Shown: positions 35,714 through 47,753 of the stretch, piece by piece
Position numbering within the stretch: the stretch's first letter is position 1
How the letters are laid out: each line of letters begins with the position of its first letter
Assembly (NCBI RefSeq): GCF_021405525.1
Contig: NZ_JAGQAG010000001.1
Coordinates: forward strand, 1,364,001-1,428,000
Reading direction: 5' to 3'
Length of the DNA: 64,000 nucleotides
Source: Ruegeria pomeroyi
GTDB taxonomy: Bacteria; Pseudomonadota; Alphaproteobacteria; Rhodobacterales; Rhodobacteraceae
The notes under the pieces: model-generated
Database searches by the model: none
The model's input: the letters and a program-made list of their open reading frames with translations, nothing else
Told to the model about the DNA's origin: nothing
Program-made: the position numbers and the translations under genes

Positions 35714-36880
35714 ATGACTGAACGCCTGTCGCCGGTCGAGATCATGGGCGCGCTTGTCGCCTTTCCGACCGTCAGCCGCGATACCAACCTGCCGCTGGTG
35801 GACTGGGTCGAAACCTATCTGGCCGGGCACGGCATCACCGCGCATCGCTGGGTCGATCCCGACCAGCCGCACAAGGCGGCGCTCTTTGCCCATGTCGGCC
35901 CTTGGGAAGAGGGGGCCGTGGTGCTCTCGGGCCATACCGATGTGGTGCCGGTCGACGGCCAGCCCTGGGACAGCGATCCGTTCACCGTGGTCGAGCGCGA
36001 CGGCAAGTATTTCGGGCGCGGCACCTGCGACATGAAGGGATTCGACGCGCTGGCGATCTGGGCGCTGGTCGAGGGGCGCTATCGCGATCTGAAACGCCCT
36101 CTGCAACTGGCGCTCAGCTTTGACGAGGAGGTCGGCTGTACCGGCGCGCCGCCGATGATCGTAGAGATGCAGAACCACCTGCCCAAGGGCAGCGCCGTGA
36201 TCGTCGGCGAGCCGTCGATGATGCAGGCGGTGACCGGGCACAAGGGCGGTTTTGGCTATGACACCCATGTTGTCGGCTTCGAGGTGCACAGCTCGATCAT
36301 GCATACCGGGGTCAACGCGATCATGGCCGCCGCGCCACTGATCGACTGGGCCAATCGCCGCAATGCCGAAAACCGCGCGGCGACGCCCTCGGCGCTGGCG
36401 GCGATGTTCGATCCGCCCTGGACCACCTGCCATGTGGGCATGATCTCGGGTGGCACCGCGCATAACATCACCGCCAAGGACTGCCGCTTTGCGATGGATT
36501 TTCGCATCGTGCCCGGCGAGGCAAAGGAGCGGTGGCGCGACGCCTATTTCGAAGCGGTGCGCGAGGTCGAGGCGCAGATGCAGGCGGTGCATCCCGAGGC
36601 ACGGATTGATCTCTCCGAACAGTTCCACGTGCCGCCGCTGGTTCCCGAGCAGGAGGGCGAGGCCGAGATGCTGGTGCGCGCCCTGACCGGCGACAATGCG
36701 GGTCATGTCGTCAGCTATGGCACCGAGGCCGGACAGTTCCAGGAGGCGGGTTACTCCGCCGTGATCTGCGGCCCCGGCGACATCGCCCAGGCGCATCAGC
36801 CCAACGAGTTCATCACCGTCGCCCAGTTCGAGGCGGGTCATGGTTTCATGGCGCGATTACTCGACCGATTGTCGGAGTAA
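35714..36880 (+). CDS. argE: Acetylornithine deacetylase-like M20 metallopeptidase
   Basis: A 388-residue M20-family enzyme with the ArgE subtype motifs: VLSGHTDVVPVDGQPWDSDPF (first His/Asp ligand), GRGTCDMKGFDAL (bridging Asp) and DEEVGCTGAPPM (Glu pair). It removes the acetyl group from N2-acetylornithine or related N-acyl amino acids. The position 3 bp after the transporter ATPase, rather than with arginine genes, suggests a catabolic role on imported N-acyl amino acids. The symbol is by similarity only. Confidence 0.85.
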   Translation: MTERLSPVEIMGALVAFPTVSRDTNLPLVDWVETYLAGHGITAHRWVDPDQPHKAALFAHVGPWEEGAVVLSGHTDVVPVDGQPWDSDPFTVVERDGKYFGRGTCDMKGFDALAIWALVEGRYRDLKRPLQLALSFDEEVGCTGAPPMIVEMQNHLPKGSAVIVGEPSMMQAVTGHKGGFGYDTHVVGFEVHSSIMHTGVNAIMAAAPLIDWANRRNAENRAATPSALAAMFDPPWTTCHVGMISGGTAHNITAKDCRFAMDFRIVPGEAKERWRDAYFEAVREVEAQMQAVHPEARIDLSEQFHVPPLVPEQEGEAEMLVRALTGDNAGHVVSYGTEAGQFQEAGYSAVICGPGDIAQAHQPNEFITVAQFEAGHGFMARLLDRLSE

Positions 36881-37044: not shown

Positions 37045-38211
37045 ATGCCGATCAAGAACCGTCTTGCAGACATGAAAGAAGAAATCACCGGATGGCGCCG
37101 GCATCTGCATGCCCATCCCGAGCTGTTGTTCGATGTGCATCAGACCGCCGCATTCGTGGTCGAGCGTCTGCGTGAATTCGGTGTGGATGACATCACCACC
37201 GGCATCGGCCGCACCGGGGTTGTCGCCACCATCAGGGGCAAGACCGACACGGCGGGCAAGGTGATCGGGCTGCGCGCCGATATGGACGCGCTGCCGATCA
37301 CCGAGGCGACCGGGCTCGACTATGCTTCGACCGTGCCGGGCAAGATGCATGCCTGCGGTCATGACGGGCATACGGCCATGTTGCTGGGTGCTGCCAAATA
37401 CCTGGCCGAGACCCGCAATTTCGACGGCACGGCGGTTTTGATCTTTCAGCCCGCCGAAGAGGGCGGCGGTGGTGGCCGCGAAATGTGCGCCGATGGCATG
37501 ATGGATCGCTGGAACATCCAGGAGGTTTACGGCATGCACAACACGCCGGGCCTGCCGGTCGGGCAATTCGCGATCCGGCCCGGCGCGCTTCTGGCCTCGT
37601 CCGACGAGTTCGAGATCGTGGTGACCGGCAAGGGCGGCCATGCCGCCGCCCCGCATGATGCCGTCGACACCACGCTGGTGGCCTCGCAGATCGTGGTCTC
37701 GCTGCATTCCATCGTCTCGCGCAACGTGGACCCGATCAAACGGGTGGTGCTGACCGTCGGCACGTTCGAGACGGACAGCGTCGCCTCGAACATCATCGCC
37801 CATACCGCGCGGCTGTGCGGAACGGTGCGCACGCTTGATCCCGAATACCGCGCCCTGGCCGAGGCGCGGGTGCGCCGCGTGGCCGAAGATATCGCCTCGG
37901 CCTATGGTGCCACGGCGCAGGTGATCTGGACCCCCGGCTATCCCGCCACCATCAACAGCGAGACCGAAACGCAGCATGCCGCCGAGGCCGCGCTTGCCGT
38001 TTCAGGCGCGGTGGATGATGCCGTCGACCCCATCATGCCCAGCGAAGATTTCGCCTATATGCTGGAAGAACGGCCTGGCGCCTATATCTTCCTTGGGAAC
38101 GGGGACACGGCGCAATGCCATCACCCGGCCTATAACTTCGATGACGAGGCGATCCCGGCGGGTAGCAGCTGGTATGCCGAGATGGTCGAACGCCGCATGC
38201 CCGCGCGCTGA
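37045..38211 (+). CDS. M20D amidohydrolase (hippurate/IAA-amino acid hydrolase type), copy 1 of 4
   Basis: A 388-residue amidohydrolase that would split an N-acyl amino acid into acid and amino acid. Metal and catalytic residues are visible: Cys104 and His106 (HACGHDGH), Glu139 (PAEEG), His165 (GMHN) and His360 (CHHPAYNFDDEAIP). The dimerisation domain contains GKGGHAAAPHDAVDTT. It differs from its three neighbours in having PSEDF instead of GGEDF near residue 334. AAGGAGAGC precedes the ATG. It is the first of four tandem paralogues, placed after a terminator, so it may have its own promoter. Confidence 0.92.
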   Translation: MPIKNRLADMKEEITGWRRHLHAHPELLFDVHQTAAFVVERLREFGVDDITTGIGRTGVVATIRGKTDTAGKVIGLRADMDALPITEATGLDYASTVPGKMHACGHDGHTAMLLGAAKYLAETRNFDGTAVLIFQPAEEGGGGGREMCADGMMDRWNIQEVYGMHNTPGLPVGQFAIRPGALLASSDEFEIVVTGKGGHAAAPHDAVDTTLVASQIVVSLHSIVSRNVDPIKRVVLTVGTFETDSVASNIIAHTARLCGTVRTLDPEYRALAEARVRRVAEDIASAYGATAQVIWTPGYPATINSETETQHAAEAALAVSGAVDDAVDPIMPSEDFAYMLEERPGAYIFLGNGDTAQCHHPAYNFDDEAIPAGSSWYAEMVERRMPAR

Positions 38212-38240
38212 GCGGCTAAAAAGACGGGGAAGAGAACAAG

Positions 38241-39404
38241 ATGCCGATCAAGAACCGCCTGGCGGAGATGCATGAGGAAATCGCGGGCTGGCGGCAGGAC
38301 ATCCACCAGCACCCCGAGATCCTGTACGAAACCCATCGGACCAGCGCGCTGGTGGCCGGCAAGCTGCGCGAATTCGGCTGTGACGAGGTGGTCACCGGCA
38401 TCGGCCGCACCGGCGTTGTCGGTGTGATCCGGGGCAAGAGCGACACGGCGGGGCGGGTCGTGGGGCTGCGCGCGGACATGGACGCGCTGCCGATGCAGGA
38501 GCAGACCGGGCTGCCACATGCCTCGACCATCCCCGGCGCGATGCATGCCTGCGGCCATGACGGCCATACCGCGATGCTGCTGGGCGCGGCCAAATACCTG
38601 GCCGAGACCCGCAACTTCGACGGCACCGTGGTGGTGATCTTTCAGCCCGCAGAAGAGGGTGGAAACGGCGCCGAGGCGATGGTCAAGGATGGCATGATGG
38701 ACCGGTTCGGGGTGCAGGAAGTCTATGCCATGCACAACAATCCGGGCCTGGCCGCCGGTCAGTTCAAGATCCGCCCCGGGCCGCTGCTGGCTGCGGCGGA
38801 TACGTTCGAAATCCATCTCGAAGGGCGCGGCGGCCATGCGGCCAAACCGCATGAGACGGTTGATACCACGGTGATGCTGTCGCAGATGATCGTGGCGCTG
38901 CAAACCGTGGTGTCGCGCAATACCGACCCGATCCTGCAGGCGGTTCTGTCGGTCACCTCGGTCGAGACCTCGTCCAAGGCGTTCAACGTGATCCCGCAGG
39001 CCGCCACCATCCGGGGCACCGTGCGCACCCATTCCGGCGAGATGCGCGAATTGATCGAGCAGCGCCTGGGTGAGGTGGTTCAGGGCGTGGCCGCCACCTT
39101 TGGCGGCAGGGCCGAGGTGAACTACGAACGTGGCGTGCCGGTGACGGTGAATGCCGAGGAACCCACCCGCTTTGCCGCCGCGGTGGCCACGGCGGTCTCG
39201 GGCGGTTGTGGCGAGGCGCGCATGGTGATGGGGGGCGAGGATTTCTCTTTCATGTTAGAGGCGCGCCCCGGCGCCTTCATCATGATCGGCAATGGCGACA
39301 GCGCCGGGCTGCATCACCCCGAATACGATTTCAACGACGAGATCATCCCGGCCGGATGCAGCTGGTTCGCCGAAATGGTCGAACGCCGCATGCCCGCTGC
39401 CTGA
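38241..39404 (+). CDS. M20D amidohydrolase, copy 2 of 4
   Basis: A 387-residue paralogue of the preceding gene, 29 bp downstream. It keeps Cys104 and His106 (HACGHDGH), the PAEEG Glu, AMHN and the C-terminal LHHPEYDFNDEIIPAG. Its centre reads GGNGAEAMVKDGMMDRFGVQEV, unlike copies 1 and 4, while the ETSSKAFNVIPQ segment is shared with copy 4. The differing pocket residues suggest another acyl or amino-acid preference. The exact substrate is unknown; hippurate- or IAA-amino acid-type activity is the family default. Confidence 0.92.
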   Translation: MPIKNRLAEMHEEIAGWRQDIHQHPEILYETHRTSALVAGKLREFGCDEVVTGIGRTGVVGVIRGKSDTAGRVVGLRADMDALPMQEQTGLPHASTIPGAMHACGHDGHTAMLLGAAKYLAETRNFDGTVVVIFQPAEEGGNGAEAMVKDGMMDRFGVQEVYAMHNNPGLAAGQFKIRPGPLLAAADTFEIHLEGRGGHAAKPHETVDTTVMLSQMIVALQTVVSRNTDPILQAVLSVTSVETSSKAFNVIPQAATIRGTVRTHSGEMRELIEQRLGEVVQGVAATFGGRAEVNYERGVPVTVNAEEPTRFAAAVATAVSGGCGEARMVMGGEDFSFMLEARPGAFIMIGNGDSAGLHHPEYDFNDEIIPAGCSWFAEMVERRMPAA

Positions 39405-39418
39405 GAAGGACCCCGCCG

Positions 39419-40588
39419 ATGCCGGTCAGAAACCGATTTGCCGAGTTGCAGGATCAGATCGCCGAATGGCGCCGCGATATCCATGCCCATCCCGAGACCC
39501 GCTTTGAAGAGCACCGTACCAGTGCGCTGGTGGCCGAGCGGCTGCGCGCCTTTGGCTGCGACATGGTGGAAACCGGGGTCGGGCAGACCGGGGTTGTCGG
39601 CGTTATTCACGGACGCCAAACCGGCTCGGGCCGGGTGATGGCGTTCCGCGCCGATATGGACGCGCTGCCGATCACCGAGGCGACCGGGTTGCCGCATGCC
39701 TCGACTCATCCGGGCAAGATGCATGCATGCGGCCATGACGGCCATACCGCGATGCTGCTGGGCGCGGCGCAATACCTGGCCGAGACCCGCAATTTCGACG
39801 GCACCGTTGTGCTGCTGTTCCAGCCCGCCGAAGAGGGCGGCGGTGGCGCCAAGGCGATGCTGGCCGATGGGGTGATGGACCGCCACGGCGTGAGCGAGGT
39901 TTATGGCCTGCACAACTGGCCGGGCCTGCCGGCAGGCCAGTTCGCCCTGCGTGAAGGGCCGATGATGGGGGCTGTGGATTTCTTTGAAATCAAGGTGCAG
40001 GGCCGGGGCGGGCATGGGGCCATGCCGCATCTGACCGCCGATGCCACGCTGGCTGCCGCGCAGCTGACCGTGGCCCTGCAACAGGTGGTGGCGCGCAACG
40101 TCGACCCGATGAAACCGGCTGTCCTGTCGGTGTGTTCGCTGCGCACCGACAGCAACGCCCACAACGTGATCGCCGACAGCGCCATGATCAAGGGAACGGT
40201 GCGCTACCTGCACCCCGAGGTGCAGGCGCTGATCCGTGCACGCATCGCCGAGGTGGCCCGTGCCACAGCCGAGGCGCATGGCGCAACGGCCGAGCTGAAC
40301 TACATGCAGCTGGTGCCGGTCACCAGCAATCCGGCCCCCGGTGCGGCCCATGCCGCCGAGGCGGCCCGGGCGGTGACCGGCCAGGCGCCGCTGGAGATCG
40401 ACCCGGTGATGGGGGGCGAGGATTTTGCCGACATGCTGGCCGAACGCCCCGGCGCCTTCATCTTTCTGGGCAATGGCGACAGCGCCGATCTGCACCACCC
40501 CGCCTATGAATTCAACGATGCGGCCATCCCCGCCGGATGCAGCTGGTTCGCCACGCTGGCCGAGCAGCGGATGCCGCTTAACCCCTGA
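39419..40588 (+). CDS. M20D amidohydrolase, copy 3 of 4
   Basis: A 389-residue paralogue with the full Cys/His/Glu ligand set (HACGHDGH, PAEEG, GLHN, LHHPAYEFNDAAIP). It is the most divergent copy: the dimerisation-domain motif reads GGHGAMPHLTADAT instead of GGHAAxPHxxVDTT, and the tail is QRMPLNP. ATG 39419 sits 14 bp after the previous stop with AGAAGGA before it; the open frame extends upstream into copy 2 but that part is out of register with any gene. Co-transcription with its neighbours is likely. Confidence 0.92.
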   Translation: MPVRNRFAELQDQIAEWRRDIHAHPETRFEEHRTSALVAERLRAFGCDMVETGVGQTGVVGVIHGRQTGSGRVMAFRADMDALPITEATGLPHASTHPGKMHACGHDGHTAMLLGAAQYLAETRNFDGTVVLLFQPAEEGGGGAKAMLADGVMDRHGVSEVYGLHNWPGLPAGQFALREGPMMGAVDFFEIKVQGRGGHGAMPHLTADATLAAAQLTVALQQVVARNVDPMKPAVLSVCSLRTDSNAHNVIADSAMIKGTVRYLHPEVQALIRARIAEVARATAEAHGATAELNYMQLVPVTSNPAPGAAHAAEAARAVTGQAPLEIDPVMGGEDFADMLAERPGAFIFLGNGDSADLHHPAYEFNDAAIPAGCSWFATLAEQRMPLNP

Positions 40589-40611
40589 TGTGACGCAAGA
40601 GGAAACACACT

Positions 40612-41775
40612 ATGCCCGTCAAGAACCGCTTTGCAGAATTGCAATCCGAGATCACCGAATGGCGCCGGGATATCCATGAGAACCCGGAAATCCTGTTCGA
40701 AACCCATCGGACCAGCGCGCTGGTTGCCGAAAAATTGCAAGAGTTCGGTTGTGATGAGGTGGTCACTGGCATCGGCCGCACCGGCGTTGTCGGTGTCATC
40801 AAGGGCAAGAGCGACAGCAAGGGCAAGGTGATCGGGCTGCGCGCCGACATGGACGCGCTGCCGATCCACGAACAGACCGGGCTCGACTATGCCTCGAAGA
40901 CGCCCAACGCCATGCATGCCTGCGGCCATGACGGCCATACCGCGATGCTGTTGGGCGCAGCCAAATACCTGGCCGAGACCCGCAATTTCGACGGTACCGT
41001 GGTGGTGATCTTCCAGCCCGCCGAAGAGGGCGGCGGTGGCGGCCGCGAGATGTGCGAGGATGGCATGATGGACCGCTGGAACATCCAGGAGGTTTACGGC
41101 ATGCACAACTGGCCCGGCGCGCCCGTGGGCAGTTTCGCGATCCGGCCCGGTGCCTTCTTTGCCGCCACCGACCAGTTCGACATCACCTTCGAGGGACGCG
41201 GCGGCCATGCGGCCAAGCCGCATGACACGATCGACACCACGGTGATGACCGCACAGGCGGTGCTGGCGCTGCAAACCATCGCCAGCCGCAACGCCGACCC
41301 GATCGATCAGGTGGTGGTCTCGGTCACCTCGTTCGAGACCTCGTCCAAGGCGTTCAACGTCATCCCGCAGCGGGTGCAGATCAAGGGCACCGTGCGCACC
41401 ATGTCCAGGGAGATGCGCGATCTGGCCGAAAAGCGCATCAACGGGATCTGTTCGGGCATTGCGGCCACCTTCGGCGGTACCGCCGATATCCGCTATATCC
41501 GGGGCTATCCGGTGATGGTGAACTCGGACGAGCAGACCGAGTTCGCCGCAAAGGTGGCACGCGATGTGTCGGGCGGCTGTGATGAGGCGGCGCTGGTCAT
41601 GGGCGGCGAGGATTTCGCCTATATGCTGGAGGAACGCCCCGGCGCCTATATTCTGGTCGGCAATGGCGACACCGCGATGGTGCATCACCCCGAATACAAC
41701 TTCAACGACGAGGCCATTCCGGCGGGATGCAGCTGGTGGGCTGAGATCGTCGAACAGCGGATGCCTGCTGCCTGA
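40612..41775 (+). CDS. M20D amidohydrolase, copy 4 of 4
   Basis: A 387-residue paralogue, 23 bp after copy 3, with all metal ligands. Residues 136-166 (PAEEGGGGGREMCEDGMMDR and on to GMHN) are nearly identical to copy 1 even at DNA level, whereas the ETSSKAFNVIPQ region (about 244-255) matches copy 2. This mosaic suggests gene conversion among the copies. It ends the plus-strand array in front of a strong hairpin. Confidence 0.92.
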   Translation: MPVKNRFAELQSEITEWRRDIHENPEILFETHRTSALVAEKLQEFGCDEVVTGIGRTGVVGVIKGKSDSKGKVIGLRADMDALPIHEQTGLDYASKTPNAMHACGHDGHTAMLLGAAKYLAETRNFDGTVVVIFQPAEEGGGGGREMCEDGMMDRWNIQEVYGMHNWPGAPVGSFAIRPGAFFAATDQFDITFEGRGGHAAKPHDTIDTTVMTAQAVLALQTIASRNADPIDQVVVSVTSFETSSKAFNVIPQRVQIKGTVRTMSREMRDLAEKRINGICSGIAATFGGTADIRYIRGYPVMVNSDEQTEFAAKVARDVSGGCDEAALVMGGEDFAYMLEERPGAYILVGNGDTAMVHHPEYNFNDEAIPAGCSWWAEIVEQRMPAA

Positions 41776-41785
41776 GCAAGAAACA

Positions 41786-41806
41786 GGGAGAGGCGCCGCC
41801 TCTCCC
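41786..41806. terminator. Hairpin between the convergent amidohydrolase and deaminase genes
   Basis: GGGAGAGGC (41786-41794) and GCCTCTCCC (41798-41806) form a 9-bp stem with a 3-base loop. No T-run is present. It is shared by both convergent units. Confidence 0.5.
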
Positions 41807-41838: not shown

Positions 41839-43131
41839 TTACCCGGTCTGCGGTGGTGCGAATGCGGTCTCGTCCAGTCCCGACCAGCCATCCGTGCCAG
41901 CCAGCTCGTGGGTCACCGGGGCTGACCGGCAGATCACCGCGCCCTTGCGGATGGTGGCCAGGCGATGGGCGCGCAGGCGGATCGCCTCGATCCGGTCGCG
42001 CGCCTGCAACAGCACGAAATTCGCGGCGCAGCCCTTGGCCAGACCATAACCGTCGAGCCCCATGATCCGGGCCGAATTCTCGGTGACCGCGTCAAAGCAC
42101 CAGTCCATGTCGGCGCGGCTGGACAGTTGACCCACATGCAGCCCCATGAAGGCCACGTCGAGCATGCAGGCGCGGCCCAGCGAATACCACGGATCCATCA
42201 CGCAATCCGAGCCGAAGCCCACGGTGATGCCCGCATCGCGCAGCTCGCGCACGCGCGTCTGGCCGCGCCGTTTGGGATAGCTGTCGTGCCGGCCCTGCAA
42301 CATGATGTTGATCAGCGGATTGGGAATGGCATGAACCCCGGCCTCGACCATCAGCGGGATCAGTTTCGAGACATAGTAGTTGTCCATCGAGTGCATCGAG
42401 GTCAGGTGCGAACCCGCCACCCGGCCCTGAAGGCCCAGGCGCCGGGTCTCATAGGCCAGCGTCTCGATATGGCGGCTCAGGGGATCGTCGCTTTCGTCGC
42501 AATGCATGTCGACCATCAACCCGCGCTTGGCCGCCATCTCGCACAAGAGGCGCACGCTTTCGGCGCCATCGGCCATGGTGCGTTCGAAATGCGGGATGCC
42601 GCCCACCACATCGACGCCCATGTCCAGCGCCCGCACGGTGTTGGCCATCGCGGTCGGGTCGCGCAGCACCCCGTCCTGGGGAAAGGCCACCAGTTGCAGG
42701 TCGAGCCGGTCCTTGACCCGCTCGCGCACCTCCAGAAGGGCCTGCACGCCTTTCAATTCGTCGTCGCAGGTGTCCACATGGCTGCGGATCGCGCCGATCC
42801 CCTTGGCCACCGCCAGATCGCAATAGCGCAGCGCGCGGGCAATGATGTCATCGATCGACTGGATCGGCTTCAGTTCACCCCACAGCGCGATCCCCTCCAG
42901 CAGCGTGCCCGAGACGTTCATGCGCGGCGTGCCCAGCGACAGGGTTGCGTCCATGTGGAAATGCGGATCGACAAAGGGCGGCGAGACCAGGTTGCCGCCC
43001 GCCTCGATCACCGTGCCCGCCTCGGCGGTGATGCCGGGTTCGACGGCGGCGATCAGGCCATCCTTGCAGGCGATATCGACGCCGCTCTGCCCGTCGGGCA
43101 GATTGGCGTTCTTGACGATCAGGTCGAACAT
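41839..43131 (-). CDS. codA: CodA-like deaminase, predicted 5-methylcytosine deaminase
   Basis: A 430-residue amidohydrolase-superfamily enzyme aligned throughout with E. coli cytosine deaminase at a constant offset of four. Metal and catalytic residues are His57 and His59 (PHFHMDATL), Gln152, His210 and Glu213 (HCDESDDP), His242 (SHLTSMHSMDN) and Asp309 (FGSDCVMDPWYSLG). E. coli Asp314, which blocks substituents at C5 of the base, is Cys310 here, and the preceding His is Ser. Homologues lacking that Asp are reported to deaminate 5-methylcytosine to thymine. It follows the BMP-type ABC transporter genes (9-bp gap), fitting salvage of an imported base. Cytosine or isoguanine remain possible substrates. 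Confidence 0.9.
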   Translation of the reverse strand: MFDLIVKNANLPDGQSGVDIACKDGLIAAVEPGITAEAGTVIEAGGNLVSPPFVDPHFHMDATLSLGTPRMNVSGTLLEGIALWGELKPIQSIDDIIARALRYCDLAVAKGIGAIRSHVDTCDDELKGVQALLEVRERVKDRLDLQLVAFPQDGVLRDPTAMANTVRALDMGVDVVGGIPHFERTMADGAESVRLLCEMAAKRGLMVDMHCDESDDPLSRHIETLAYETRRLGLQGRVAGSHLTSMHSMDNYYVSKLIPLMVEAGVHAIPNPLINIMLQGRHDSYPKRRGQTRVRELRDAGITVGFGSDCVMDPWYSLGRACMLDVAFMGLHVGQLSSRADMDWCFDAVTENSARIMGLDGYGLAKGCAANFVLLQARDRIEAIRLRAHRLATIRKGAVICRSAPVTHELAGTDGWSGLDETAFAPPQTG

Positions 43132-43140
43132 GGCAGGCTC

Positions 43141-44085
43141 CTATCGTTGGCCCTTGAACCAGGGTTGCAGCAATGCGCGCGGATAGTCGGCAGAGCGCGC
43201 GGCGATGACAAGGGCCATGATGGACAGGATATAGGGCGCCATCAGGAACACCTGTCCCGGCACCAGCGCACCCATCTCGGTCTGCAAACGGACCTGAAGT
43301 GCATCGAAGGCGCCAAACAACAGCGCCCCGAACAGCGCCTTGCCCGGTCGCCAGCTGGCAAAGATCACCAGCGCGATACAGACCCAGCCGCGCCCGTTGA
43401 CCATGCCGAAAAAGAAGGCGTCGAACGCGCTCATCGTCAGGAAGGCGCCGCCAAGCGCCATCAGCGCCGACCCCGCCACGATGGCACCGATCCGCAGCCC
43501 ATAGACCGACAGGCCCTGCGCATCGACACTGTCGGGATTGTCGCCCACCGCCTGAATGGCCACCCCCAGCGCGGTGCGGTTCAGCACGTACCAGACCAGT
43601 CCCACCATCATCAGTGCCAGCCAGGTCAGCGCCGTCTGCTGAAACAGCACCGGCCCGAGGAAGGGCAGATCGGACAGCACCGGCAGGTCCAGCGGCTGAA
43701 ACGGCTCGATCCGGGGCGGGGACGAGACATTGGGCAGCGCGGTGCGATAGGTGAAATAGCTGACCGAGGTGGCAAACAGGGTGATACCCAGGCCCGAGAC
43801 ATGTTGCGACAGGCCCAGCGGCACGGTCAGGATCGCGTGCAGCAGGCCAAAGAAGGCCCCGGCCAGCGCTGCCATCAACACGCCCCCCCACAGGCCCGCG
43901 CCCAGCCAGACCGCCATCCAGCCGCACATGGCGCCGACCACGAATATCCCCTCGATACCAAGGTTCAGCACGCCCGCGCGTTCACAGATCAGCGCGCCCA
44001 GCACGCCGAATATCAGCGGGGTCGCGATCCGCAGGCTTGCGGCCCAGAAGCTTTCGCTGAGCAGGATGTTCAGGATGTCCATCAT
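43141..44085 (-). CDS. ABC transporter permease, nucleobase/nucleoside type (YufQ/BmpD-like)
   Basis: A 314-residue membrane protein with about eight to nine helices. The segment RAGVLNLGIEGIFVVGAM near residues 36-55 marks permeases of the BMP/simple-sugar branch. Its start overlaps the upstream permease stop by four bases (ATGA). Together they form the channel of the four-part transporter. The downstream deaminase suggests nucleobase import. Confidence 0.9.
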   Translation of the reverse strand: MMDILNILLSESFWAASLRIATPLIFGVLGALICERAGVLNLGIEGIFVVGAMCGWMAVWLGAGLWGGVLMAALAGAFFGLLHAILTVPLGLSQHVSGLGITLFATSVSYFTYRTALPNVSSPPRIEPFQPLDLPVLSDLPFLGPVLFQQTALTWLALMMVGLVWYVLNRTALGVAIQAVGDNPDSVDAQGLSVYGLRIGAIVAGSALMALGGAFLTMSAFDAFFFGMVNGRGWVCIALVIFASWRPGKALFGALLFGAFDALQVRLQTEMGALVPGQVFLMAPYILSIMALVIAARSADYPRALLQPWFKGQR

Positions 44086-45155
44086 GACGCGGCCCTTCCC
44101 GTGCCCGAGCGGATGATCCGGTAGCGGGCGATGAAGCCGCCCACCAGAACGCAGAGCAGCGACATCGACACCACCAGATCGGCCAGAAAGGACGATACTC
44201 CCATCGCCCGGCTCATGCTGTCTGCTCCGACAAAGACCGAGGCGATGAACAGGGCGGCGATGACCACCCCCACCGGCGACAGGCCCGCCAGCATGGCCAC
44301 CACGATGCCGGTATAACCAAAACCGGGCGACAGGTCGGCGGTCAGATAGCCCTTGAGGCCCGCGACCTCGCTGACGCCCGCCAGCCCGGCCAGCCCGCCC
44401 GAGATGATCGCCACGCCAAACAGCGAACGTTTCACGTTGATCCCGGCATGGCGGGCGGCGGCGGCGTTCTCGCCCACCGCGCGCAGCCGGAACCCCCAGA
44501 CCGAGCGCGCCAGCATGAACTGCGCCACCGCGGCCAGAACCAGTGCCAGGATCAGCCCGGAATGCACCCGCATCCGGTCCATCAGTGGCGGCAGCATGCC
44601 CTGGTCGAGGATCGGCGCCGATTGCGGCCAGCCGAGCCCCATCGGATCCTTGAGCGGTCCTTCGAGCATCATTTGCAGGAAAATCAGGATGATGAAGTTC
44701 AACAGAAGCGTGGTCACCACCTCGTCGGCGCCAAAGCGCGATTTCAGGTAGGTCGGCACCGCCATGCCCGCCGCCCCGGCCGCAGCACCAAGGATCACGA
44801 TCAGCGGCACCAGCACCAGCCCCGGCAGGTCGAGCCAGCCGGCGCCGACCGCCACCGCCGCCATGGCGCCAAGGTAAAGCTGCCCCTCGGCCCCGATGTT
44901 CCAGAGCTTGGCGCGAAAGGCCAGCGCGGCGGCCAGCCCGGTAAAGATCAGCGGTGTCGCGCGGGTCAGCATCTCGGACAGGGCAAAGACCGAGCCAAAG
45001 ACGCCCTTGACCATCTCGCCATAGGCGGTGATCGGGTTGGCGCCCGCCGCCATCAGCGGAATGGCGGCAAAGGCCAGCGCGATCACGGCAGAAAGCACCG
45101 GAATGCCCAAGTCCATGGTGCGCGACCTGTGTTGGCGCGGTTCAATCCGGATCAT
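44082..45155 (-). CDS. ABC transporter permease, nucleobase/nucleoside type (YufP-like)
   Basis: A 357-residue permease with about ten hydrophobic segments. It carries FRAKLWNIGAEGQLYLGAM (about 80-98) and FGYTGIVVAMLAGLSPVGV, both typical of the first permease in BMP-linked systems. It overlaps the ATPase gene by 4 bp upstream and the second permease gene by 4 bp downstream, indicating tight translational coupling. Confidence 0.9.
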   Translation of the reverse strand: MIRIEPRQHRSRTMDLGIPVLSAVIALAFAAIPLMAAGANPITAYGEMVKGVFGSVFALSEMLTRATPLIFTGLAAALAFRAKLWNIGAEGQLYLGAMAAVAVGAGWLDLPGLVLVPLIVILGAAAGAAGMAVPTYLKSRFGADEVVTTLLLNFIILIFLQMMLEGPLKDPMGLGWPQSAPILDQGMLPPLMDRMRVHSGLILALVLAAVAQFMLARSVWGFRLRAVGENAAAARHAGINVKRSLFGVAIISGGLAGLAGVSEVAGLKGYLTADLSPGFGYTGIVVAMLAGLSPVGVVIAALFIASVFVGADSMSRAMGVSSFLADLVVSMSLLCVLVGGFIARYRIIRSGTGRAAS

Positions 45156-46669
45156 GCCGCCTCTCCTGCCATCATCAATCCAATCCGCTCGCGGTCATGG
45201 CTGCCGGTCTCGACAATCTGGCCGTCGCGGATCACCACGACCCGGTCGGCCAGGCCCAGGATCTCGTCCAGATCCTCCGAGATGAGCACGATCCCGGCGC
45301 CGCGTTCGCGCGCCTCGAGCAGGCGCCGCCCGACCTCGGCCGCCGCCCCCATGTCCAAACCGCGTGTCGGCTGGTTGGCCAGGATCAGGCGGGGCGCGCG
45401 TTCGAACACCCGTGCCAGGATCAGTTTCTGGATATTGCCACCCGAAAGCAGCCGCGCAGGTGCCGTCACGCCCGGACCACGCACGTCATAGGCACGGGCC
45501 AGTTCCTCGGCATGGGTCGCGATCGCCTCGCGCCGGAGCAGCCCGCGCGATTGCACCTGCGGGTCGTCCAGCCTCTCGATCACCATGTTCTCGGCCACGC
45601 TCATGGCGCCGACGATGCCCTCGTGATGGCGGTCCTCGGGGATGCGCCCGACACCGGCGCGCACCATCCTGGCGGGAGAGGGGCGGGGGATCTCGCTCCC
45701 ATCCACCCGGATATGCCCGGCGGTGGGGACGGAAAGGCCCGAGATCACGTTGGCCAGCGCGCTTTGCCCGTTGCCCGAGATACCCGCAACCCCCAGAATC
45801 TCATGGGCATGTACCGTCAGATCGGCCTGTTTCAGGCTGTCGCGCTGGGACCGGCCCGCGACCGAAACCCCCTGCAAATGCAGAACCGGGGCACCCGGTG
45901 CCATGGCGCTGCGGGCGATGCGGGGGGTGTCGGCGCCCACCATCATCCGGGCAATCGCCGCCTCGTCGGCCTCGGATGTGGCCATCTCGCCCACCTTGCG
46001 CCCATGGCGCAGCACCGCGATCCGGTCGGAAAAGGCCAGCACCTCGTGCAGCTTGTGCGAGATGAAGATCACCGACAGGCCCTCGGTCGTCATCGCCTTG
46101 ATGCTGGCAAACAGCGTATCGGCCTCTTGCGGGGTCAGCACCGCGGTGGGTTCGTCCAGCACCAGAATGCGGGCATCGCGATAAAGCGCCTTGAGGATCT
46201 CGACCCTCTGCCGCTCGCCCACGGAAAGGCGGCCCACCGGCACGTTCAGCGGGGCCTTGAGCCCGCTATGGGCCATGATCGCCTCGATCCGGGCCCGCGC
46301 ACCGCGCCGGTCGCGGCGGATCGCGCGCAGCGGTTCCGCGCCCAGCGTGATATTGTCGAGCGCATTGAGGTTCTCGGCCAAGGTGAAATGCTGGTGCACC
46401 ATGCCCACGCCTGCGGCCAGCGCCGCCTGCGGATGGCCCAGCGGCAGGGGCGCAAGATGCCCGGCCTCGTCCGCCACCTCGACCGTTCCCGCGTCGGGCA
46501 GGTAATGCCCGAACAGCATGTTCATCAGCGTGGTCTTGCCCGCGCCGTTTTCGCCCAGCAGCGCCAGCACCTCGCCGCGCGCCAGCGACAGGCTGACATC
46601 GTCATTGGCCACCACCGGGCCAAAGCGCTTGCTGAGCCCGTTCAGCCTGAGAACCGTTGTATCTGTCAT
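45152..46669 (-). CDS. Dual-domain ABC transporter ATP-binding protein (YufO-like)
   Basis: A 505-residue ATPase with two ABC modules. The first has Walker A GENGAGKTTLMN and LSVGERQRVEILKAL with ILVLDEPTAVLTP. The second is degenerate at Walker A (GISGNGQSALAN), as usual in this family, and carries LLSGGNIQKLILARV. It energises the BMP-type nucleobase importer. A GC-rich hairpin lies between it and the preceding binding-protein gene. Confidence 0.93.
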   Translation of the reverse strand: MTDTTVLRLNGLSKRFGPVVANDDVSLSLARGEVLALLGENGAGKTTLMNMLFGHYLPDAGTVEVADEAGHLAPLPLGHPQAALAAGVGMVHQHFTLAENLNALDNITLGAEPLRAIRRDRRGARARIEAIMAHSGLKAPLNVPVGRLSVGERQRVEILKALYRDARILVLDEPTAVLTPQEADTLFASIKAMTTEGLSVIFISHKLHEVLAFSDRIAVLRHGRKVGEMATSEADEAAIARMMVGADTPRIARSAMAPGAPVLHLQGVSVAGRSQRDSLKQADLTVHAHEILGVAGISGNGQSALANVISGLSVPTAGHIRVDGSEIPRPSPARMVRAGVGRIPEDRHHEGIVGAMSVAENMVIERLDDPQVQSRGLLRREAIATHAEELARAYDVRGPGVTAPARLLSGGNIQKLILARVFERAPRLILANQPTRGLDMGAAAEVGRRLLEARERGAGIVLISEDLDEILGLADRVVVIRDGQIVETGSHDRERIGLMMAGEAA

Positions 46670-46710: not shown

Positions 46711-47700
46711 TCAGTTGTCCGAGACCGGGCGGTCGTCGTTCACGTTGACACGGAACAGACCGTCCAGAATCTCGGCTTCCTTGGCCTTGACCGCCGTGAC
46801 CGTTTCCGGTGCAACCAGGCTTTCGTCCAGCACCAGCGAACCGCCGCCATAGGCCATGAAACTGTACTGGCCATAATCGGCGGCCTCGAAACTGCCACCC
46901 GCGACATTCTCGATCGCCTTGTCGATGGTGGCCTCCATGTGCCACAGCGCCGAGGCGACGATGGTGCCTGGATAATCGCCCGAGGTGTCGATCACGTTGC
47001 CGACCGCCTTGACGCCGCGCTCGACCGCGGCATCGGACACGCCAAAGCGTTCGGCATACATCACGTCCGCGCCCGCATCCATCATCGCAAAGGCGCTTTC
47101 CTTGGCCTTGGGCGGGTCATACCAGCTGTCGATGAAATTGACGATGAACTTGACATCGGGGTTGACCGAGCGCGCGCCGTCCATGAACGCATGCATCAGC
47201 CGGTTCACCTCGGGGATGGCATAGCCACCGACCATGCCGATCACGTTCGATTCGGTGGCGGCACCGGCCACCATGCCGGTCAGATAGCTGGGTTCGTGGA
47301 TCCAGTTGTCGAAGACCGAGAAATTCGGTGCCACCGGCCCGAAGGACGATCCCATCAGAAAGGCGGTGTCGGGATAGTCCTTGGCCACCTTGCGTGCGGC
47401 GCGTTCCAGACCGAACACCTCGCCCACGATCAGTTGTGCACCCTGTTCGGCATATTCGCGCATTACCCTTTCATAATCGGTATTTGCGACATTCTCCGAG
47501 AAGGTATAGTCGATATCGCCGCGGTCGGCGGCGGTGTTCAGCGCCTTGTGAATGCGGCTGATCCATTGCTGTTCGACCGGCAACGTGTAGATGGCCGCGA
47601 CCTTGACCTTTTCGGCGGCGGCAGCCCCCGCCGTCATCAGGGCCGAAGCTGCGACTGCCGCAGCAAGCATGACCCTGCGCGTGATTGATGTGTTCTTCAT
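46711..47700 (-). CDS. BMP family ABC transporter substrate-binding protein
   Basis: A 329-residue periplasmic protein with a signal peptide (ITRRVMLAAAVAASALMTAGAAAA), followed by the BMP/PnrA fold: KVAAIYTLPVEQQWISRIHKAL, YERVMREYAEQGAQLIVGE, IGMVGGYAIPEVNRLMHAF and GADVMYAERFGV. BMP proteins bind nucleosides, purines or related bases. With the deaminase four genes later, a pyrimidine base or nucleoside is plausible. GCAGGAGAGG precedes the ATG. Confidence 0.92.
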   Translation of the reverse strand: MKNTSITRRVMLAAAVAASALMTAGAAAAEKVKVAAIYTLPVEQQWISRIHKALNTAADRGDIDYTFSENVANTDYERVMREYAEQGAQLIVGEVFGLERAARKVAKDYPDTAFLMGSSFGPVAPNFSVFDNWIHEPSYLTGMVAGAATESNVIGMVGGYAIPEVNRLMHAFMDGARSVNPDVKFIVNFIDSWYDPPKAKESAFAMMDAGADVMYAERFGVSDAAVERGVKAVGNVIDTSGDYPGTIVASALWHMEATIDKAIENVAGGSFEAADYGQYSFMAYGGGSLVLDESLVAPETVTAVKAKEAEILDGLFRVNVNDDRPVSDN

Positions 47701-47737: not shown

Positions 47738-47753
47738 TTTACCGATTAGTCAA
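47738..47753. promoter_or_regulatory. Imperfect palindrome upstream of the BMP operon
   Basis: TTTACCGATTAGTCAA keeps 10 of 16 symmetric positions (TT-AC--AT--GT-AA pattern). It lies 38 bp before the BMP start in an AT-rich patch, suiting a GntR- or TetR-type operator. No regulator gene is adjacent. Confidence 0.35.

Follow-up and report, generated by a model that had tools for sequence, protein, structure and literature searches.

Known cytosine and 5-methylcytosine deaminases

The closest described relatives of the protein reported here are cytosine deaminase (CodA) of Escherichia coli and the 5-methylcytosine (5mC) deaminase of Klebsiella pneumoniae (Kpn00632; PDB 4r7w, 4r85 and 4r88). When Asp at the so-called discriminator position of CodA, Asp314 in the numbering used here and counted as Asp315 in the source, was replaced by Ala, activity on 5mC was gained, and for the Klebsiella enzyme Ser is given at this position (PMC6186785). 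A known 5mC deaminase is listed in PMC13054789 among the enzymes that prefer an alkylated base. The hydrolysis mechanism of CodA is described in PMC12828455, where enzymes of the CodA cluster are assigned broad scopes including isocytosine and AtzC substrates. Two further systems are relevant here: RutR, a uracil- and thymine-sensing regulator with a palindromic site of about 16 bp (PMC10891134), whose regulons in proteobacteria have been compared across 68 genomes in 13 groups (PMC5343134), and URC, a route for uracil that includes a uracil phosphoribosyltransferase step (PMC7530994).

We analysed a stretch of 64,000 nucleotides from Ruegeria pomeroyi (hereafter the window), for which an earlier note had predicted a 5mC deaminase on the grounds of a Cys in place of CodA Asp314. 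A 2014 report of 5mC deaminases reportedly included Rsp0341 of Rhodobacter sphaeroides, which is presumably a member of the same subfamily as the window protein. Family, substitution class and prediction are already known. The present analysis adds the range of the Cys lineage, the split between it and the Klebsiella type, and its setting in a RutR-linked pyrimidine operon. Among the papers listed in a literature search that did not cover the 2014 report, none named Rsp0341 and none joined the Cys lineage, the Klebsiella split and the RutR-linked operon; we make no claim that this combination is unreported.

The deaminase and its active site

The deaminase gene (ATG start, TAA stop) is the last of a minus-strand operon, whose features are as follows.

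41839..43131, minus strand: CodA-type amidohydrolase, 430 residues, predicted cytosine/5-methylcytosine deaminase (PF07969, NF005748, PDB, AlphaFold model)
42202..42204, minus strand: codon TGC, Cys310, in the column of CodA Asp314
43141..44085, minus strand: ABC permease 2 (BPD_transp_2, PF02653), 9 bp before the deaminase start
44082..45155, minus strand: ABC permease 1 (BPD_transp_2, PF02653), with a 4-bp overlap with each neighbour
45152..46669, minus strand: ABC ATPase with two ATP-binding stretches (PF00005, twice)
46711..47700, minus strand: BMP-type (PnrA-like) substrate-binding protein (PF02608), first gene of the operon
47738..47753, minus strand: RutR-like site TTGACTAATCGGTAAA, 38-53 bp before the first ATG of the operon

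The protein matched PF07969 (Amidohydro_3) with 185.6 bits and the NCBIfam model NF005748 'cytosine deaminase' with 762.2 bits, over its cut-off of 438. The score of 408.3 bits with NF006685 (PRK09230, E. coli CodA) lay below the cut-off of 483, ruling out membership of the E. coli CodA subfamily. A phmmer search against the PDB led to the Klebsiella protein (4r7w/4r85/4r88, E 1.9e-101) and to E. coli cytosine deaminase (1k6w, E 2.4e-101). Identities among the solved structures are 42-44% to CodA and the 5mC deaminase versus 27-29% to AtzC-type enzymes. An AlphaFold model, computed from an input of 17 sequences, had a mean pLDDT of 79.4 and gave 4r7w and 3o7u as best structural matches (TM 0.87 by query length, 43-44% identity); as loops 63-83, 277-290 and 312-319 are of low confidence (pLDDT below 50), no reading was drawn from pocket geometry. 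By its sequence, the window protein is a CodA-type deaminase of the NF005748 subfamily. Its closest named relatives are from Ruegeria (89% identical), and the gene is present as a single copy in its own genome, where the second-best match has 23 bits.

His57, His59, Gln152, His210, Glu213, His242 and Asp309 are all present and each invariant across 112 aligned rows, which bears out the claimed CodA homologue with a complete CodA-type metal and catalytic set (HxH, Gln after strand 3, His, Glu, His, Asp). In HMMER alignments Cys310 shares a column with Asp314 of E. coli CodA (GHDDVFDPW in the wild type), a column in which 1r9y has Ala and 1r9z Ser; these chains are named as D314A and D314S mutants in their PDB titles. 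The equivalence of Cys310 and Asp314 thus holds, and on the fuller alignment Cys, and no Asp, was found at the discriminator position.

Compared with the Klebsiella enzyme, the window protein shares the fold, the catalytic residues, a small residue in place of Asp314 and a DATL loop, but carries Cys where the former has Ser, and NPLINI instead of CPTESI. With E. coli CodA (1k6w, 3o7u) it has in common the fold, the metal ligands, the catalytic columns and an NPL-NI segment, and differs from it in the Cys for Asp314 and in a DATLS loop instead of DTTQT.

The discriminator column among homologues

The subfamily alignment comprised 112 rows, namely the window protein, the copy from its own genome and 110 relatives; four rows repeat another, leaving 108 different sequences. 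Cys occupies the discriminator column in 109 rows and Ser in three (105 and three, respectively, when different sequences are counted), with Asp in none. As Cys is nearly fixed in the subfamily, Cys310 is ruled out as a local oddity or sequencing slip. The window protein matches the NF005748 (PRK07572) model over its full length and is an ordinary-looking member of this subfamily, whose aligned members as a rule have Cys at the discriminator; no difference from the others was found. Three rhizobial members of the Cys lineage (L093, L101 and L112) have Ser at the discriminator and Cys at the next position.

A larger set of 146 rows, which also takes in 31 proteins retrieved by the E. coli CodA subfamily model and three plasmid copies, contained 117 Cys, 18 Ser and 11 Asp. 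Among the 24 of these 31 proteins that score over the cut-off of the model, 14 have Ser and 10 Asp, so that in the present draw Asp is not the rule even among proteins of the E. coli CodA model. Three main signatures, each with exceptions, were recognized in the 146 rows: DTTQT / NPLVNI / GHDDVFDPW with Asp (10 of the 11 Asp rows), DATLT or similar / CPTESI / DSI with Ser, which is that of the solved Klebsiella enzyme, and DATLS or DSTLS / NPLINI / DCVMDPW with Cys.

In a tree of 71 of the 146 rows (Cys rows thinned, L188 flagged as a long branch), a 100/100 branch of length 2.21 splits the Cys group, including its three Ser members, from the Asp rows and the other Ser rows, so that at least two distinct lineages have residues other than Asp. 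The Klebsiella chain itself is absent from this tree; its signature is represented by proteins that group with CodA of the E. coli type across the 100/100 branch. The window protein is placed by these sequences in the Cys lineage, apart from the lineage with the Klebsiella signature. L156 and L187, which have Ser at the discriminator, represent a further CodA-like type; their first loop (DAHLHLDYV...) is altered and extended, and their branch has a length of 2.25.

Within the family of the window, 102 of 295 genomes carry a member of the Cys subfamily that scores over the NF005748 cut-off. A member of the E. coli CodA subfamily passes its own cut-off in one genome (L156, with Ser at the discriminator), and no Asp-type CodA was seen over the cut-off among the 295. 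In this family the Cys enzyme thus seems to take the position that Asp-type CodA has in E. coli. The only other sampled genome of the genus (G031) gave weak matches only (best E 4.5e-8). A tblastn search against phages gave 9 records, none above 60% identity.

The importer operon

The operon runs from the BMP-type binding protein over the ABC ATPase and two permeases to the deaminase; the intergenic gaps measure 41 and 9 bp, and two gene pairs overlap by 4 bp. Among solved structures, the BMP protein is closest to 6pi5 (E 7.4e-31), titled 'atrazine periplasmic binding protein', and to 3s99 (E 2.5e-30), which we take to be AtzT and a Brucella protein, respectively, both binding purine-like bases. 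The operon probably encodes a nucleobase ABC importer. In E. coli, codA is not known to have a BMP importer next to it. A literature search found no published link of a cytosine deaminase to a BMP transporter, and one on nucleoside transporters of Ruegeria was likewise without result.

Linkage was followed in fetched stretches around the deaminase of 80 named relatives, some on short contigs. Picking genes by longest ORF proved noisy in these high-GC loci (no NCBIfam model matched three of the seven ORFs so chosen), and the linkage counts therefore rest on tblastn with chosen genes. A BMP gene was found in 52 of the 80 stretches and none in the other 28, so linkage to the importer is not universal. 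The closest relatives (L041-L050) show the same order of importer and deaminase genes as the window, and in seven others (L081, L085, L086, L092, L103, L110 and L114) the BMP gene follows the deaminase. Plasmid copies were examined in five of 719 plasmid records, one of which has no annotation in the stretch.

In some relatives an amidase gene lies between the BMP gene and the ABC ATPase (L088, 3009-4457; L086, 10433-11869; L121, 4010-5458; L194, 3110-4498). It is possible that this form of the operon adds a further step on an imported amide.

Pyrimidine pathways in the genome and in relatives

About 1 Mb from the deaminase operon, the same genome carries a cluster for reductive uracil and thymine breakdown, together with a RutR-like gene and a matching site. 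Its members are as follows.

PreA: 729 bits, cut-off 335
Dihydropyrimidinase: 598 bits, cut-off 393
HyuC-type hydrolase: 700 bits, against a subfamily that carries the name allantoate amidohydrolase
PreT: identified from its domains and its position next to PreA; its NCBIfam matches stay below cut-off
NMT1-type ABC transporter

Furthermore, upp lies in an operon with deoA-, deoB- and add-like genes (named from Pfam domains), and a search for URC4 in this genome, run without a positive control, gave no match.

In three of the 80 relatives the deaminase is linked to genes of the reductive pathway: in an Amylibacter assembly (L056) importer, deaminase, preT, preA, rutR, hyuC and hydA form one cluster, in L079 preT follows the deaminase at the contig end, and in L113 hydA and hyuC precede the importer. 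A rutR-like gene is present in eight of the 80 stretches. In six of the 80, and also in one Azospirillum plasmid, the deaminase has URC1, URC4 and upp upstream of it; two more of the 80 have upp alone there. As URC starts from uracil (PMC7530994), the product of these URC-linked deaminases should include uracil and their substrate cytosine, and the route would presumably not take thymine. The URC-linked members are of the same subfamily and signature and 67-71% identical to the window protein, and those in the tree (L100, L102, L108, L119 and L122) belong to one clade of seven rows apart from the window protein, for which reason their substrate need not be that of the window enzyme.

A RutR-like site upstream of the operon

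RutR sites have the consensus letters TTGACCANNTGGTCAA. The window site TTGACTAATCGGTAAA deviates from this consensus at three positions. A best site with at most three mismatches was present upstream of 26 of 44 importer-first operons, compared to 0.9% of order-1 shuffles, 0/44 for the reversed pattern and 2/44 for a scrambled palindrome. It was seen in 2/35 of the loci scored as codA-first, which include some whose importer genes are cut by a contig end; two of the 80 loci were dropped because of short upstream sequence.

A degenerate pattern, written after the window site had been seen, matched exactly at two places in the 4.5-Mb genome, namely the window operon and C1:2438200-2438215, with about 0.19 exact matches expected at the base composition of the window. 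The second site shows no mismatch to the consensus and lies in the reductive cluster 46 bp before hyuC, between the HyuC-type gene and a divergent TetR gene. When one mismatch was allowed, the genome gave fewer hits than the backward control (31 versus 52); only the exact hits therefore carry weight, and the one-mismatch hits are noise. The divergent RutR-like gene encodes a TetR_N domain and a C-terminal domain of the RutR type (TetR_C_3, PF08362, 169.9 bits) and scores below the curated cut-offs for RutR (TIGR03613, 227 of 368 bits; PRK15008, 208.6 of 230).

With its palindromic upstream site and a RutR-like gene within the pathway cluster, the locus may correspond to the RutR pyrimidine regulon, but has the reductive pathway and an ABC importer as partners instead of the rut operon, and a regulator below cut-off. 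The importer-deaminase operon is probably repressed by a RutR-like regulator of the TetR family and released by uracil or thymine. By text search, the word 'cytosine' is absent from the main text of the published comparison of RutR regulons (PMC5343134).

Substrate of the deaminase

With Cys in place of Asp314 the pocket next to C5 should be open, and the enzyme should then take cytosine as well as 5mC. The capacity to take 5mC is a reasonable prediction by analogy, for which the support in the literature concerns Ala and Ser at this position. Operon, site and gene linkage, on the other hand, point to general pyrimidine-base catabolism. As the residue would tolerate a C5 methyl group and the context is one of uracil-yielding catabolism, a deaminase for both bases is the simplest account, and we consider it likely that the window encodes such a pyrimidine-catabolic enzyme, fed by the importer, under control of the RutR-like regulator and drained by the reductive pathway.

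From the sequence and its conservation, the operon, the gene linkage and the sites, we infer substrates, transport and repression as follows. The probable nucleobase importer of the operon would supply the bases. By analogy with CodA (PMC12828455), Asp309 and His242 would activate water on the bound metal, Glu213 would move the proton and Gln152, after strand 3, would hold the exocyclic oxygen, while the pocket opened by Cys310 would admit both bases, leading from cytosine to uracil and from 5mC to thymine. These products may enter the reductive pathway (PreT, PreA, dihydropyrimidinase, HyuC-type hydrolase) or be salvaged via upp, and uracil or thymine would release the operon from repression by the TetR-type regulator.

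The same residue could also be read as the mark of an enzyme dedicated to 5mC from methylated DNA, with thymine as product and cytosine as a minor substrate. Such a role would agree with the Cys at the discriminator column, with the Ser-bearing Klebsiella relative, a 5mC deaminase by its PDB title, with the effect of Ala in CodA (PMC6186785) and with the genes for reductive thymine breakdown in the same genome, and the Cys lineage may share the preference for the alkylated base stated for such enzymes (PMC13054789). We nevertheless regard it as unlikely, given that some relatives are linked to URC1, URC4 and upp and hence to a route starting from uracil (PMC7530994), and that the Cys subfamily is present in 102 of the 295 family genomes with no Asp-type CodA seen over the cut-off. 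Of the prediction made in the earlier note, the loss of the discriminator Asp is real and a capacity for 5mC is a fair prediction, but 5mC as the substrate finds no support in view of the URC1/URC4/upp linkage, the operon, the site and the pathway linkage. One specificity residue does not name a substrate, and the neighbouring genes speak for uracil at least as loudly as the residue does for 5mC.

Conversely, Cys for Asp might have no effect at C5, leaving a plain cytosine deaminase that does not turn over 5mC; the segment near the active site (NPLINI) is indeed closer to NPLVNI of CodA than to CPTESI of the Klebsiella enzyme, and the gene context is compatible with cytosine. The published consequence of replacing the discriminator Asp (PMC6186785) and a discriminator that is never Asp in 108 different members make this improbable. 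Even less credible, and in our view very improbable, is an enzyme that acts on a different base, be it isocytosine, isoguanine, a triazine or some modified nucleobase, and has the scaffold alone in common with CodA. The broad scopes in the CodA cluster (PMC12828455) and the amidase gene inside the operon of some relatives would allow for it, but the active site is fully that of CodA, the identity is higher to CodA and the 5mC deaminase (42-44%) than to AtzC-type enzymes (27-29%), and the neighbours are pyrimidine-catabolic.

Returning to the deaminase for both bases, we tentatively raise the possibility that the Cys subfamily is a dual-purpose deaminase that replaces Asp-type CodA in many alphaproteobacteria; a single importer and enzyme under RutR control would then carry cytosine and 5mC from dissolved DNA into the same uracil and thymine degradation route. 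To our knowledge, the fate of 5mC from the DNA of dead cells has been little studied. If the subfamily takes both bases, the methylated base could be fed back into general metabolism by many alpha- and betaproteobacteria, and the dual-purpose enzyme, if real, would be a general bacterial sink for 5mC.

Genes downstream of the operon

Four tandem M20 amidohydrolase genes on the plus strand (37045-38211, 38241-39404, 39419-40588 and 40612-41775, together 37045-41775) are 59-72% identical to one another and are preceded by an acetylornithine-deacetylase-like gene (35714-36880). As the four M20 genes lie on the opposite strand and converge on the deaminase, they are ruled out as part of its operon. 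Between the converging deaminase and M20 genes, a perfect inverted repeat with 9-bp arms was found (41786-41806); it has a weak run of T on the side of the deaminase and may perhaps be a shared terminator.
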